From Paenisporosarcina sp. FSL H8-0542 (GTDB lineage Bacteria; Bacillota; Bacilli; Bacillales_A; Planococcaceae): 64,000 bases of DNA. The notes beneath the pieces were generated by a model. It had not been told where the DNA came from, made no database searches, and was given only the letters and a program-made list of their open reading frames with translations. The stretch lies in the NCBI RefSeq assembly GCF_038632915.1, contig NZ_CP152050.1, positions 2,325,001-2,389,000 on the forward strand, written 5' to 3'. Every line of letters begins with the position of its first letter. The first letter of the stretch is position 1. Both the position numbers and the translations under genes were made by a program. Of this stretch, positions 16,122 to 20,522 are shown one piece after another.

Positions 16122-16574
16122 TTAAGCTGAACAGCCACAAGAACCACCAGTTCCACAGCTTCCTGTACTACAAGAAGAGGCAGCTGAAGCGAAGAACGGA
16201 TTGCTGACAGGGACCTTGACAGATTCAGATACAGTTTTTCCTATTAATAAGCTGACTTCATCCAACAAATCTTGCAATTCGTTTTCAGCCAGTCTTAAAT
16301 TAGCGACACGTTCATTCATATCAAGTGCGCGTTTTTGTACTCGAATAGACTTCATCACGTGCTGATAGTCCGGATGATACTTTCCGAAGCGTTGAACATC
16401 TTCATACTGCTCTTTTAAACGAGAAAAAGAAGCAATCTGTCTATTTAATAATTCGTCTGTATAAACGGCGAAATATGCTTCTTTGAAGCGTTCTACTTGC
16501 TCGGAGGATAAAATCATCTGTGTTAAACTATCTCCTTCATCCATGATGTTTGCCCATTCTGATGTCATCATCAT
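16122..16574 (-). CDS. ylbF: YlbF (RicF), Fe-S protein of the Ric complex
   Basis: A 150-residue helical YlbF/YmcA-family protein with a cysteine-rich tail (SSCSTGSCGTGGSCGCSA). In B. subtilis the RicA-RicF-RicT complex carries [4Fe-4S] clusters, helps RNase Y mature mRNAs, and supports competence, biofilm and sporulation. The tail cysteines are the likely cluster ligands. Three consecutive ATG codons begin the gene after GGAGG; the first is used. It marks the left edge of the accessory block reaching to ylbC. Confidence 0.92.
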   Translation of the reverse strand: MMMTSEWANIMDEGDSLTQMILSSEQVERFKEAYFAVYTDELLNRQIASFSRLKEQYEDVQRFGKYHPDYQHVMKSIRVQKRALDMNERVANLRLAENELQDLLDEVSLLIGKTVSESVKVPVSNPFFASAASSCSTGSCGTGGSCGCSA

Positions 16575-16661
16575 CGGACATTCCTCCAATCTATTTTAAT
16601 CATAACAGATTGGACTCATAAAATAAAAGACCTGCATTTGCTAAAAGTTAGGAGAAACAAC

Positions 16662-17150
16662 ATGAAAAAATCAGTACGTAATCAACTCGAAAACATATTA
16701 ATTCATGCATCAACCGAAGATGTCTCTACGTTATCAAAATGGTTGGAAGGCTTTGAGAAGAAACAAAGTGGTGATCTTTCCACTTATTTAGGCGCTACTT
16801 TGCATATGGAGAAGAAATTAAGCGATGATTCTTGCACGATATCCATCCCAATAACTCCTTATATTCATAACACTCTTCATATCCCTCACGGTGGTATTCT
16901 GGCCGTTATGCTTGATACCGCGATGGGTGTCCTCGCAAATCATTCACTATCTGAAGAATTTGCCGCTGTAACCATGAACTTATCCATTAACTATTTGGCG
17001 ACGGCCACGGAAGGTCATTTACATGCACGTGCTACTTTTTCACATAAAGGACGCCAGACGATGGTGGTTACCGGTGAAATTACGGACGACAATGGCAAGA
17101 AGCTTGCGGTTGGCAATGGATCATTTTTCGTGGTTCCCCGCCATCGGTAA
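16662..17150 (+). CDS. PaaI-family hotdog thioesterase
   Basis: A 162-residue hotdog-fold protein with the PaaI motif HGGILAVMLDTAMG near residues 77-90, expected to hydrolyse an acyl-CoA thioester. The substrate is not deducible. The ATG at 16662 follows AGGAG. Its last 30 bp overlap the 3' end of the oppositely directed MurE gene, so the two termini are compacted together with no terminator between. It belongs to the block that replaces ylbD/ylbE of the B. subtilis order. Confidence 0.8.
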   Translation: MKKSVRNQLENILIHASTEDVSTLSKWLEGFEKKQSGDLSTYLGATLHMEKKLSDDSCTISIPITPYIHNTLHIPHGGILAVMLDTAMGVLANHSLSEEFAAVTMNLSINYLATATEGHLHARATFSHKGRQTMVVTGEITDDNGKKLAVGNGSFFVVPRHR

Positions 17151-18596
17151 CGTCGATAATATTAGCAGAACGGTTTGTTCGTCTGAAAAAGGGATAACTT
17201 GATCGCCAATATGTTGAGTGGACTCATGACCCTTCCCTGCTATACAGAGTAAATCTCCAGGTTTGCAATACCGAAGCGCTTGTTGAATCGCAGCTGCTCG
17301 ATCGACTTCGATATGGATCTTGGAAGTCTCCGGCAAATTTCCAACGATTTGCTGGCAGATTTTCAGAGGATCCTCTAATCGGGGGTTATCTGATGTCACC
17401 CACATGCTATGTGAGTAAAATGCTGCAATCTCTCCCATAGCACTTCGCTTCGCTTGGTCGCGATTTCCTCCGCATCCGAATACAACAAGTAATCGTCCTT
17501 CAGTAATTCTTGATGCTGAAGAAAGTAGATGTTGCAGAGCTTCTGGTGTATGCGCATAATCTATGACTACTTGAAAAGGTTTTTTTAAGATGAATTGAAA
17601 TCTGCCAGGGGGTAAAGTAATGTTGGGGAGTAGCGGAATAATTGATGACATCGGAATATCCAATTGTCGTATAGTCGCAATTGCAGCCGCTATATTTGAG
17701 ATATTATAGAGTCCTGTAAAACCAACTTCCACGTCATAACCATCACAATCTCCTTCATCGAATATTGTCACATTCGTTGATACTGGCTTTATTTCTTTCA
17801 GCTGGATGAATTCTTCGCCAAACCAATTCAGTTCTTTCGTGCATTCTTTTCCTTTTTCCAACCAAAAAGAATCGTCTTTATTCACAACAACTTTTCGGCT
17901 TATATCCATTAATTTGCATTTTGCTTTTTTATAGGACTCAATGCCTTCATGATCTTCAAGATGATCATGTCCTAGATTTAGAAATACCCCTTGTTGGATT
18001 GAACAATGGTCCAGTCGGTGCTGTGCTAATCCCATCGATGAAGCTTCAATTATGACATGTGTAATGTTCATTTTTAACAGTCGGGCAAAGGTTTGATGGA
18101 GATGTGAAGCAGACCATGTAGTGAGTGATGGAAAATTCTCATCAACTTTTTTTCCATTTATAAAAAGTCCTAATGTACCGATTACTGCTGTTTGGTAGCC
18201 AAGCAACGTGAGCATTTGACCTATCATATGGCTTACCGTTGTTTTACCATTGGTTCCAGTCACCGCCACCACGTGCAATTGTTTTGATGGATTCCCATGA
18301 ACACGGGCACAAGCATGAGAAAGAAAGGTCCTAGTGTTTGGCACGATGCCAAACGCCACCTCTCTACACATTTTTTCATGTTCTCGATCTTCCGCAATAA
18401 TACAGACCGCCCCGTTTTCGATTGCCTCATTTATATAAGTAGCACCATTGGCATTTTTCCCTTTAATAACTACAAAGACATCACCGGCTTGAATTTCCTT
18501 GGAATTTTCTTTGACCCCACATATGATTTCATTAAAGGATCCGTGTAACCACGTACACGGCCAGTCTTTTAATAAATCGGCAATGACCAAAGTCAT
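17121..18596 (-). CDS. Second MurE, UDP-MurNAc-dipeptide ligase with meso-DAP-type motifs
   Basis: A 491-residue Mur ligase outside the dcw cluster. It has the ATP loop GTNGKTT (114-120), the carbamyl-lysine region YKKAKCKLM (222-230), GCGGNRD (374-380), DNPR (403-406) and GKGHE (454-458). DNPR and GKGHE are the residues that select meso-diaminopimelate rather than lysine. It is diverged: the usual EVSSH reads EASSM (184-188) and the usual TTP reads TTW (159-161). The ATG at 18596 follows GGAGGGG. A sigma-E-like promoter lies upstream and an ACT-less aspartokinase is divergent. I infer a spore-cortex DAP ligase; a generic MurE duplicate is the alternative. Confidence 0.85.
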   Translation of the reverse strand: MTLVIADLLKDWPCTWLHGSFNEIICGVKENSKEIQAGDVFVVIKGKNANGATYINEAIENGAVCIIAEDREHEKMCREVAFGIVPNTRTFLSHACARVHGNPSKQLHVVAVTGTNGKTTVSHMIGQMLTLLGYQTAVIGTLGLFINGKKVDENFPSLTTWSASHLHQTFARLLKMNITHVIIEASSMGLAQHRLDHCSIQQGVFLNLGHDHLEDHEGIESYKKAKCKLMDISRKVVVNKDDSFWLEKGKECTKELNWFGEEFIQLKEIKPVSTNVTIFDEGDCDGYDVEVGFTGLYNISNIAAAIATIRQLDIPMSSIIPLLPNITLPPGRFQFILKKPFQVVIDYAHTPEALQHLLSSASRITEGRLLVVFGCGGNRDQAKRSAMGEIAAFYSHSMWVTSDNPRLEDPLKICQQIVGNLPETSKIHIEVDRAAAIQQALRYCKPGDLLCIAGKGHESTQHIGDQVIPFSDEQTVLLILSTLPMAGNHEK

Positions 18597-18653: not shown

Positions 18654-18682
18654 ATCGTATGTAAGCATGCGGGAAAATGTCA
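18654..18682 (-). promoter_or_regulatory. Possible sigma-E promoter of the second MurE gene
   Basis: On the minus strand TGACATT and CATACGAT are 14 bp apart. Against sigma-E consensus (KMATATT, CATACAMT) this is 5 of 7 and 7 of 8, with correct spacing. It lies 58 bp upstream of the start codon. The remaining 110-bp divergent gap shows no lysine riboswitch or other leader structure. Confidence 0.4.
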
Positions 18683-18708
18683 CTCATGATTAATAAGGAG
18701 CGGGTTTG

Positions 18709-19452
18709 ATGATTGTGCAAAAATTCGGAGGCATAGCGGTGAGAGATGCAGCATCGCGGGCAGTATGTATTCAACATATTAAAGAAGGTTTAGCCAAATA
18801 TAAATCGGTTCTGGTGGTTGTTTCAGCAATGGGGCGTCATGGGGATCCTTATTCCACCGATACACTGATTCGAATAACGGACGCATTTCAAATTGCACCA
18901 GAATCAAAAGATGTTGCCGCTATTTGCGGAGAGCTCCTGGCCTCTTCCGTTCTATCAGCAGAATGTTTAAAGCAACAGATTCCGTGTCAATTAGCGTATG
19001 GCATACAGGCTGGTATCTACACGGATGACCATTTTGGAGATGCTTCAATTATTAAAACATCTAAAAAAGTCATTAAAGAATTGCTCCAGCATGTACCATG
19101 TGTAATTGTACCAGGGTTTCAAGGAATTACGACAGATCATCGCTTTACGACACTTGGACGCGGTGGCAGTGATTTAACTGCAATCGTGATGGCCAATTTA
19201 TTCGATGCCGAGGCGGTTGAATTTTATAAAGATGTACCAGGTGTCATGTCCGGTGATCCAAAAAACTCGGAAAATGTATATAAATTACCGAAAGTTTCGT
19301 ATGAAAAGCTTCAGCAGCTTTGTGAAACTGAGACACACCCACTGATACAAAAAAAAGCAGTGGACATGGCGGCTAAGCACCAAATTCCACTGCATATTCG
19401 TCCTTTCGGTTCTTCAGAAGAAGGAACATGGATAAACTCCGCTGCTCATTGA
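18709..19452 (+). CDS. Aspartokinase catalytic domain without ACT domains
   Basis: A 247-residue protein matching only the amino-acid-kinase domain of aspartokinase, closest by eye to DapG of B. subtilis. KFGG (5-8), VSAMGRHGDPYSTD (38-51), CGE (73-75) and GRGGSD (150-155) are kept. It ends where the two regulatory ACT domains would begin, with a clean stop rather than a frameshift. It should make aspartyl phosphate for the DAP/lysine branch free of feedback control. ATG at 18709 follows AAGGAG. Its 3' end overlaps that of ylbC by 7 bp. It is divergent from the second MurE. Confidence 0.85.
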   Translation: MIVQKFGGIAVRDAASRAVCIQHIKEGLAKYKSVLVVVSAMGRHGDPYSTDTLIRITDAFQIAPESKDVAAICGELLASSVLSAECLKQQIPCQLAYGIQAGIYTDDHFGDASIIKTSKKVIKELLQHVPCVIVPGFQGITTDHRFTTLGRGGSDLTAIVMANLFDAEAVEFYKDVPGVMSGDPKNSENVYKLPKVSYEKLQQLCETETHPLIQKKAVDMAAKHQIPLHIRPFGSSEEGTWINSAAH

Positions 19453-20522
19453 CCTTTTCTGACATTCATCTCGCGTTTTACAAAGTTTTGCGTATAATAT
19501 TTGCCAAATGTTCCTACGCCCAGGTGGGTAAAATCTTCTTTTAGCAAAACTTCTCTATGATCTGAAGAATTTAACCAACCATTTACAACTTCTGCTGAAT
19601 CATAATAATTCGCTGCAAGGTTTTCAGCTGCACTGTCATAAACAATAAGCGACTCTTCCAAACGGTTTTCCAAATCCCCAAAATCCGGTGACTCATGAGA
19701 AAAATAATTTTGCATCGCCATATCTTCACTATGTTTGCTTGCAACAAGTCCAAGAGCATCATCTTCAATAACTGTATTTACGGAATGACGTGAACGATAC
19801 ACGTTCGTCAATTCAAATAATTGGCGTTCATTTGATGCATCAATAGATTTTTGCAATGTCGTTGAAGGTACTTTAGGTGCTAAGTAGTCACCTTTGTAAG
19901 TCATTTCATAAGGCTGATGGAGAACAAGTGTCTTTGGATCAGTAAAACGAATGGCTTCCACTTCTTGGTCTTCTTCATCCATATAAATTTGGGCAAAAAG
20001 CCCATCGAATTTAATTAATAATCGGTTCGTCATATCTTGGTCGTTGATGGTGAATGTATAAACATTCGAATCGATTTGCACGGTAATTTCCGACTCGATT
20101 ATAGTAAAGCGGTATAAATCATCAATGGATTGCCCAACTTGATAGGGTGAGGCATCAAGGCTTTCTCCTGCAATATATATTTGAGTTATGGTGTCCCCGT
20201 TAACGCCTACCATCATATAAGAATCGAGTGACCTATTGTACACCCACCATTCATATCCGTAAGCTGAAGGCTCGATTCGGTTAGGTTCCCCAAATGATTC
20301 CACCACTTTTTTAGTATGTTGTCCAATAAGCGTAGATAGTCCTTTTTCTGGTCTTGGGACTGATTCTTCCCCAGATGGGGGTAATAAGTTTTCCTGTGGC
20401 AAAGCTTGCCCTGTTGGACCGGGCGCTTCCAATAAATCATTTTCTTGAACAGTTTGGTCGGAATAAAAAATGACAGTCATGATAATAGCTAATAAAATTA
20501 AGATTCTAACCAATACTTTCAA
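19446..20522 (-). CDS. ylbC: YlbC, CAP/SCP-domain protein with CAP-associated domain
   Basis: A 358-residue secreted or anchored protein. A hydrophobic N-terminal segment (about 5-20) is followed by a low-complexity linker, a CAP-associated domain (about 62-200) and a C-terminal CAP/SCP domain (about 235-350). The latter shows ELTNVYRSRHS, KHSEDMAMQNYFSH and AENLAANY. Function in Bacillus is unknown; CAP domains often bind lipids or peptidoglycan surfaces. Right edge of the accessory block. Starts after GAGGAGTTGTCTT. Confidence 0.88.
   Translation of the reverse strand: MKVLVRILILLAIIMTVIFYSDQTVQENDLLEAPGPTGQALPQENLLPPSGEESVPRPEKGLSTLIGQHTKKVVESFGEPNRIEPSAYGYEWWVYNRSLDSYMMVGVNGDTITQIYIAGESLDASPYQVGQSIDDLYRFTIIESEITVQIDSNVYTFTINDQDMTNRLLIKFDGLFAQIYMDEEDQEVEAIRFTDPKTLVLHQPYEMTYKGDYLAPKVPSTTLQKSIDASNERQLFELTNVYRSRHSVNTVIEDDALGLVASKHSEDMAMQNYFSHESPDFGDLENRLEESLIVYDSAAENLAANYYDSAEVVNGWLNSSDHREVLLKEDFTHLGVGTFGKYYTQNFVKREMNVRKGQ

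Follow-up and report, generated by a model that had tools for sequence, protein, structure and literature searches.

A MurE of predicted meso-diaminopimelate type that is lost in step with sporulation in the Planococcaceae and its probable role in the spore cortex

The presence of a complete murE between two genes that we take to be ylbF and ylbC, within a 64,000 nucleotide stretch of the Paenisporosarcina sp. FSL H8-0542 genome (positions 2325001-2389000 of a single 3.63 Mb contig, hereafter the window), raises the question as to which wall such an enzyme serves. An initial annotation of the window had proposed a ligase of the spore cortex, and this identity is supported in substance by co-distribution with spoIVA, a promoter box and the DNxR motif of all 27 window-type sequences aligned. 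Taken with its synteny, these features indicate that the gene very probably encodes a sporulation-dedicated MurE adding meso-diaminopimelate (meso-DAP) for the cortex, with its substrate, its timing and its compartment inferred from them.

The predicted protein matches all three Mur ligase domains of Pfam and exceeds the cut-off of the TIGR01085 murE model (430.8 bits against 257.3). It starts with an ATG preceded by the ribosome-binding site AGGAGGGG and carries the P-loop TGTNGKT, invariant in a 20-row alignment (A1), as well as the motifs TSDNPRLEDP and GKGHESTQ, so that the full-length MurE with DNPR and GKGHE first annotated between ylbF and ylbC is confirmed. Its domains, P-loop, DNPR and GKGHE are those of the meso-DAP MurE found in the division and cell wall (dcw) cluster (Escherichia coli 1e8c, Mycobacterium tuberculosis 2wtz and other Bacilli), from which it differs in lying outside dcw, in being tied to sporulation and in having a promoter box resembling the mother-cell type; identity to the MurE listed from other families of Bacilli is 28-38%. 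Among solved structures 8f5d and the DAP ligases of E. coli and M. tuberculosis rank on top and the lysine ligase of Staphylococcus aureus (4c12), matched at only 2e-43, is not the nearest relative. Asn and Arg stand at the positions of E. coli N414 and R416 in 27 of 27 rows of this window type (DN[PASC]R), Pro being replaced in four, and GKGHE is present in 26, the exception being a diverged copy from genome G020 with GKGNE. The enzyme would thus be expected to add meso-DAP rather than lysine.

The location of the gene is not due to chance, since orthologues occupy the same neighbourhood in 12 of 12 spore-forming genera sampled. Eleven further genera contributed 20 loci. In 19 of them the window-type murE is flanked by both ylbF and ylbC, at times with an additional 1-3.5 kb of sequence in between, and ylbC was not found at the remaining locus (L047). 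B. subtilis carries ylbD/ylbE at this position.

In order to relate the gene to sporulation we looked at 151 genomes of the family, using spoIVA as the sporulation marker in the same set. A window-type MurE (E 1.8e-79 or better) was found in 113 genomes, all of which also have a SpoIVA match (117 of 151 in total; in one of the 113, G099, the spoIVA match is interrupted by a contig end). The next-best match in a further genome, at 9e-67, is a lysine-like paralogue of the kind described below. Of the 38 genomes lacking a strong MurE match 34 also lack a SpoIVA match, and conversely none of these 34 has a strong window-type match. They make up genera g7, g8, g9, g10, g12 and g16 of our sample (20 were listed by name and the rest deduced from the list of 117 SpoIVA-positive genomes). 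All four exceptions, with a SpoIVA match and no strong MurE match, belong to genus g2. In genome G020 spoIVA is intact, and the interval between ylbF and ylbC encodes a MurE of 436 amino acids with MDNPRFED together with an aspartokinase of 223 amino acids, both of them strongly diverged; in the other three spoIVA is broken and murE and kinase survive only as remnants at the locus. Since G020 illustrates that the threshold can miss a diverged copy, 12 of the 34 genomes without spoIVA were read at this locus, and no murE fragment was found in any of them, even with the G020 copy as the query. Loss of sporulation is thus accompanied by loss of the window-type murE and of its linked kinase, and an equal distribution in non-sporulating relatives, which the initial annotation had named as an outcome that would speak against a cortex role, is not what is seen. 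Genus g2 (L264, L313-L315), with one intact and three broken copies of spoIVA and a matching decay of murE and kinase, appears to be losing sporulation. As a pointer to genus names, the leucine dehydrogenase of a g14 genome has 1leh, the B. sphaericus enzyme, as its best match; that of the window genome does not indicate any single genus.

A conserved -10 box of mother-cell-like form lies upstream of the gene. From 66 window-type murE loci, four of which gave no start in the start-motif step, we obtained 110-bp upstream regions for 64, 53 of them distinct. The sequence CATAnnnTA, which corresponds to the -10 consensus of sigma-K and resembles that of sigma-E, occurs in 45 of these 53 regions against 1.9 in dinucleotide shuffles and the shorter CATAnnnT in 51 against 7.2; the species sampled are related, so that the regions do not count as independent. 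A -35-like GTG[A/T]C or GTCA is found 13-19 bp upstream of the CATA in 45 of the 53 (shuffles 0.4). As controls, CATAnnnTA was present in just one of 20 regions upstream of the lysine-type murE and in none of 13 upstream of an M42 peptidase gene, and was near shuffle level for ylbF (3 of 54 against 1.8) and ylbG (3 of 21 against 0.8). A related CATAnnAT does occur in 15 of the 54 distinct ylbF regions (2.4 in shuffles). The positive control, spoIVA, for which a start was located at 21 of 27 loci, yielding 20 distinct regions, had CATAnnnTA in 12 and CATAnnnT in 19 of the 20 within 110 bp; the box of the window genome's own spoIVA is CATACGATA. Upstream of dpaA the pattern was found in 0 of 27 stretches, most of which read as the end of the preceding gene and are therefore uninformative. 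The yabG gene was unusable as a control, the YabG spore protease family PF05582 being matched in none of 41 genomes of the family, and this lack of a match extends to the spore formers among the 41, though B. subtilis was matched. A consensus scan of 22 representatives gave sigma-K 8 and sigma-E 3 standard deviations (sd) above a mononucleotide-shuffle null with no excess for sigma-G or sigma-F. The score of the -35-like box in the window itself is reached by 7% of shuffles.

The initial annotation had assumed that the murE of growing cells would be found in the dcw cluster, for which we take the order to be mraZ-rsmH-ftsL-pbpB-spoVD-mraY-murD, the names resting on sequence and gene order. This is not so. 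There is no murE in the cluster to the left of the window gene, where mraY follows spoVD after about 42 bp, and the vegetative candidate (L001) adjoins prfC at 2.440 Mb, some 97 kb from the window gene. The whole genome encodes eight Mur_ligase_M proteins, of which three are of MurE type (the window gene, L001 and L002) and the others are taken by size and place as MurC, MurD, MurF and two FolC. A second, lysine-like murE does exist as had been predicted, and the lack of any other murE, a further outcome that the initial annotation had named as speaking against its proposal, is not what is seen; this murE has DDPR rather than the DNPA or similar motif that had been expected.

L001 is likely to be the vegetative, lysine-adding MurE. 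Among solved structures it matches 4c12, the lysine ligase of S. aureus, best (458 bits, E 2.5e-136), followed by the plastid MurE-like 8w9z, the fusion protein 8f5d and the lysine ligase of Thermotoga maritima (293 bits), with E. coli MurE below the latter at 269 bits at best. The S. aureus enzyme and the L/D-lysine MurE of T. maritima (4bub) are of the same protein family as the window MurE, and both are nearer to L001. Among 20 loci fetched for this paralogue 18 hold an orthologue, 17 of them adjoining prfC, as murE of S. aureus also does; the one at L070 has the M42 peptidase but no prfC beside it. DDPR is present in all 19 paralogues (L001 and its 18 orthologues), which look lysine-type by this motif, and the change of Asn to Asp in the substrate-binding motif would fit a switch from DAP to lysine; S. 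aureus MurE has DNPA. Lysinibacillus walls are of Lys-Asp type according to a passage in one report (PMC6971209).

The MurE tree that the initial annotation had suggested, for which 70 rows were prepared and seven near-duplicates dropped (class loci L289, L291 and L297 were left out), places the window type in one separate group (Shimodaira-Hasegawa-like approximate likelihood ratio test (SH-aLRT) 94) with long branches, that of the G020 copy being the longest, and joins the L001 type to S. aureus MurE (SH-aLRT 100).

Further MurE-like proteins stand apart from both types. The third one of the window genome (L002:1138-2658, genome positions 2734124-2735644, at 2.734 Mb) has 506 amino acids, the motif DHPG and SGCINGSQ where the others have GKGHE; it clusters away from the other MurE rows in the tree together with a relative of 39% identity from the spoIVA-less genome G031 (L069). 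The other of the 20 paralogue loci with a different MurE-like gene, L064 from the spoIVA-less genome G012, encodes DDLN and GKGHESYK, unlike either MurE type.

Divergent from the murE upstream region lies a gene for an aspartokinase with the motifs KFGG, GE and TLGRGGSD. The protein ends after the kinase domain and lacks the C-terminal ACT regulatory domains. Its top NCBIfam match is PRK08210, which we take to be the DapG model, over the kinase domain; the match extends no further than position 248 of the 405 in the profile, and its 234.7 bits lie below the cut-off of 474. In B. subtilis DapG, the DAP-sensitive aspartokinase I, is encoded in the dpaAB-asd-dapG-dapA operon. The linked kinase resembles DapG in having PRK08210 as the best match across the kinase domain and differs in its lack of ACT domains and in its place beside murE, dapG being gone from the operon. 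The dpaA-dpaB-asd-dapA operon (for example L210:3296-6728) was read at 21 loci representing 12 genera, with and without the linked kinase, and also in G020, and at none of them did it contain an aspartokinase gene; the TIGR02853 cut-off for DpaA was reached in 0 of 41 genomes. Three proteins of the amino-acid-kinase family PF00696 are encoded in the whole genome, namely the linked kinase, a full-length monofunctional aspartokinase elsewhere (640.5 bits to NF005156, cut-off 594) and one of UMP-kinase size. None of the three would qualify as a glutamate 5-kinase or an acetylglutamate kinase.

A strong match to the linked kinase (E < 1e-55, in frames of 237-318 amino acids) is found in 56 of the 113 murE-bearing genomes, in every case 107-205 bp from the window-type murE. 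All sampled members of genera g1, g3, g4, g5, g6 and g17 have it, and g11, g13, g14, g15, g18 and g19 have the window-type murE without it. On the kinase strand CATAnnnTA is present in 12 of 28 distinct upstream regions (shuffles 1.1). From its domain content and position we read the kinase as a putative feedback-free supply of the aspartate pathway at the time of sporulation. The features of the locus are collected in Table 1. The thioesterase whose gene converges on murE is retained at 8 of the 12 spoIVA-less loci read and is thus a neighbour rather than part of the system.

Table 1 Features of the murE locus, in window positions
Feature	Position	Strand	Basis or remark
DAP-type MurE paralogue, 491 aa (amino acids); proposed cortex UDP-MurNAc-dipeptide:meso-DAP ligase	17121..18596	-	domains, motifs, PDB matches, family-wide synteny
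Proposed murE promoter, -10-like box CATACGAT resembling sigma-E/sigma-K	18654..18661	-	family statistics
-35-like box TGACATT, 14 bp from the -10	18676..18682	-	12/15 sigma-E consensus positions
Divergent aspartokinase (248 aa, start probably ATG 18709) consisting of a DapG-like kinase domain	18706..19452	+	profile matches
ylbF-like flank, syntenic anchor	16122..16589	-	sequence and family synteny
Hotdog thioesterase	16638..17150	+	convergent with murE, 3' ends overlapping
ylbC-like YkwD/CAP-domain protein, syntenic anchor	19446..20522	-	sequence and family synteny

A number of observations weigh against a sporulation-specific DAP ligase paired with a lysine-type vegetative enzyme. Of the 64 loci 11 lack the full CATAnnnTA, and the window and seven near relatives (together L012-L019) belong to these 11, with CATACGAT or CATACGCT in its place. 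The -35-like pattern seen in 45 of 53 murE regions is found in none of the 20 spoIVA regions, which places the two promoters in different classes, and in the same consensus scan sigma-A is also in excess (190 against 182, sd 2.6, about 3 sd). As 57 of the 113 murE-bearing genomes do without the kinase, it is not required, and its own box is weaker and is absent from the window and L013-L019. With respect to the paralogue, the NCBIfam model for DAP ligases (NF001126) passes on L001 at 527.8 bits (cut-off 373) and the lysine-ligase model stays below its cut-off (417.2 of 536). NF001126 is however not discriminating here because its cut-off is passed by all three MurE proteins of the genome (421.8 for the window MurE and 400.2 for the third), and the lysine model passes on none of them. 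The DDPR of L001 is shared with T. maritima MurE, an enzyme that accepts some DAP. Lastly, the long branches of the tree obscure the origin of the DAP type.

By motif the window MurE is the sole clearly DAP-type MurE of the genome and its dcw cluster has no murE, as would be expected if it were a housekeeping or backup enzyme of growing cells that had merely moved out of dcw. We regard this as highly improbable, given that strong matches are missing from all 34 spoIVA-less relatives and nothing remains at the 12 loci read, that murE is broken together with spoIVA in three g2 genomes, that its promoter box is unlike the upstream region of the paralogue and that among eight genomes with both proteins every one of the 28 pairs shows lower conservation for the window type than for the paralogue (for example 44% against 67%). 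A different question is whether it is the former dcw murE of the lineage in a new place, as opposed to an acquired or duplicated gene; such an origin would be compatible with a cortex role. In other Bacilli murE directly follows spoVD in 19 of 20 loci read and nothing stands there in this genome; in the tree the DAP type and those dcw genes are not united, an outcome that long branches could cause, and relocation seems to us a real possibility, if somewhat short of an even chance.

Linkage to sporulation alone cannot separate the two layers of the spore wall, and a sporulation MurE might make the germ-cell wall (the inner layer that later becomes the vegetative wall), or both layers, instead of the cortex proper. 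This is very unlikely in our view, as the germ-cell wall would be expected to match the vegetative lysine type. In B. subtilis the cortex genes spoVB, spoVD, spoVE and others are placed under sigma-E in a passage of one source (PMC3533761). As regards the kinase, it may serve the synthesis of dipicolinate, a compound that a statement in one paper puts at 5-15% of spore mass (PMC5962572), its adjacency to murE then reflecting no more than shared mother-cell timing; such a role would not exclude supply of the wall. The absence of dapG from the dpaA-dpaB-asd-dapA operon in all 21 loci and the placing elsewhere of the only other, full-length aspartokinase of the window genome would agree with this. 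The six genera without the linked kinase however also lack dapG in that operon, so the kinase is not needed for dipicolinate generally, and we entertain the dipicolinate role as possible though not the expected outcome.

Under the preferred reading of the window gene as a cortex-dedicated, meso-DAP-adding MurE, the separate MurE beside prfC would add L-lysine to UDP-MurNAc-L-Ala-D-Glu (MurNAc, N-acetylmuramic acid) during growth. Once the mother-cell sigma factors are active the window gene would be switched on from its CATAnnnT(A)-type promoter, and its product would turn the same nucleotide precursor into the UDP-MurNAc-tripeptide with meso-DAP, the presumed building material of the cortex. 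In the genus of the window and five others the ACT-less and presumably feedback-blind aspartokinase, divergent from the same intergenic region, would raise the flux of the aspartate pathway to DAP (and dipicolinate) once growth stops. It is conceivable, at slightly under even odds, that two chemically distinct walls are thereby made in each life cycle by a mother-cell module in which the DAP-type MurE is joined, in roughly every second genome, by a feedback-free aspartokinase, with flux and precursor identity switched together. Were this the case, the difference in stem peptide would mark the cortex apart from the germ-cell wall and germination hydrolases could distinguish the two.

Tipper and co-workers in the 1970s reportedly described the appearance of a meso-DAP-adding enzyme during sporulation of Bacillus (Lysinibacillus) sphaericus, and a paper of Guinand, Michel and Tipper from 1974, cited in PMC5962572, concerns by its title a DAP-type hydrolase. 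Like the enzyme proposed here, that of B. sphaericus is a second MurE activity, adds DAP and not lysine and comes from the same family. It was an activity without a gene, whereas we have a gene, a locus, a promoter box and a family-wide distribution; the link between them would be our inference. No paper assigning a window-type gene was found by title or abstract opening, in a search that left subscription journals mostly outside and is therefore weak evidence of the assignment being unpublished. The biochemistry is of a known kind; what is new is the gene, the ACT-less kinase that accompanies it and the way in which it disappears together with sporulation.

For the family as a whole, the window-type murE provides a candidate gene for a biochemical observation that is reportedly some fifty years old, predicted for its spore-forming genera, and a probable feedback-free aspartokinase is gained as a candidate with it. 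Within the family DNxR against DDPR may serve as a simple sequence marker of MurE specificity. The parallel loss of the gene with sporulation is a natural experiment, and the question as to why the cortex would be built from DAP while the growing wall uses lysine is opened to test.
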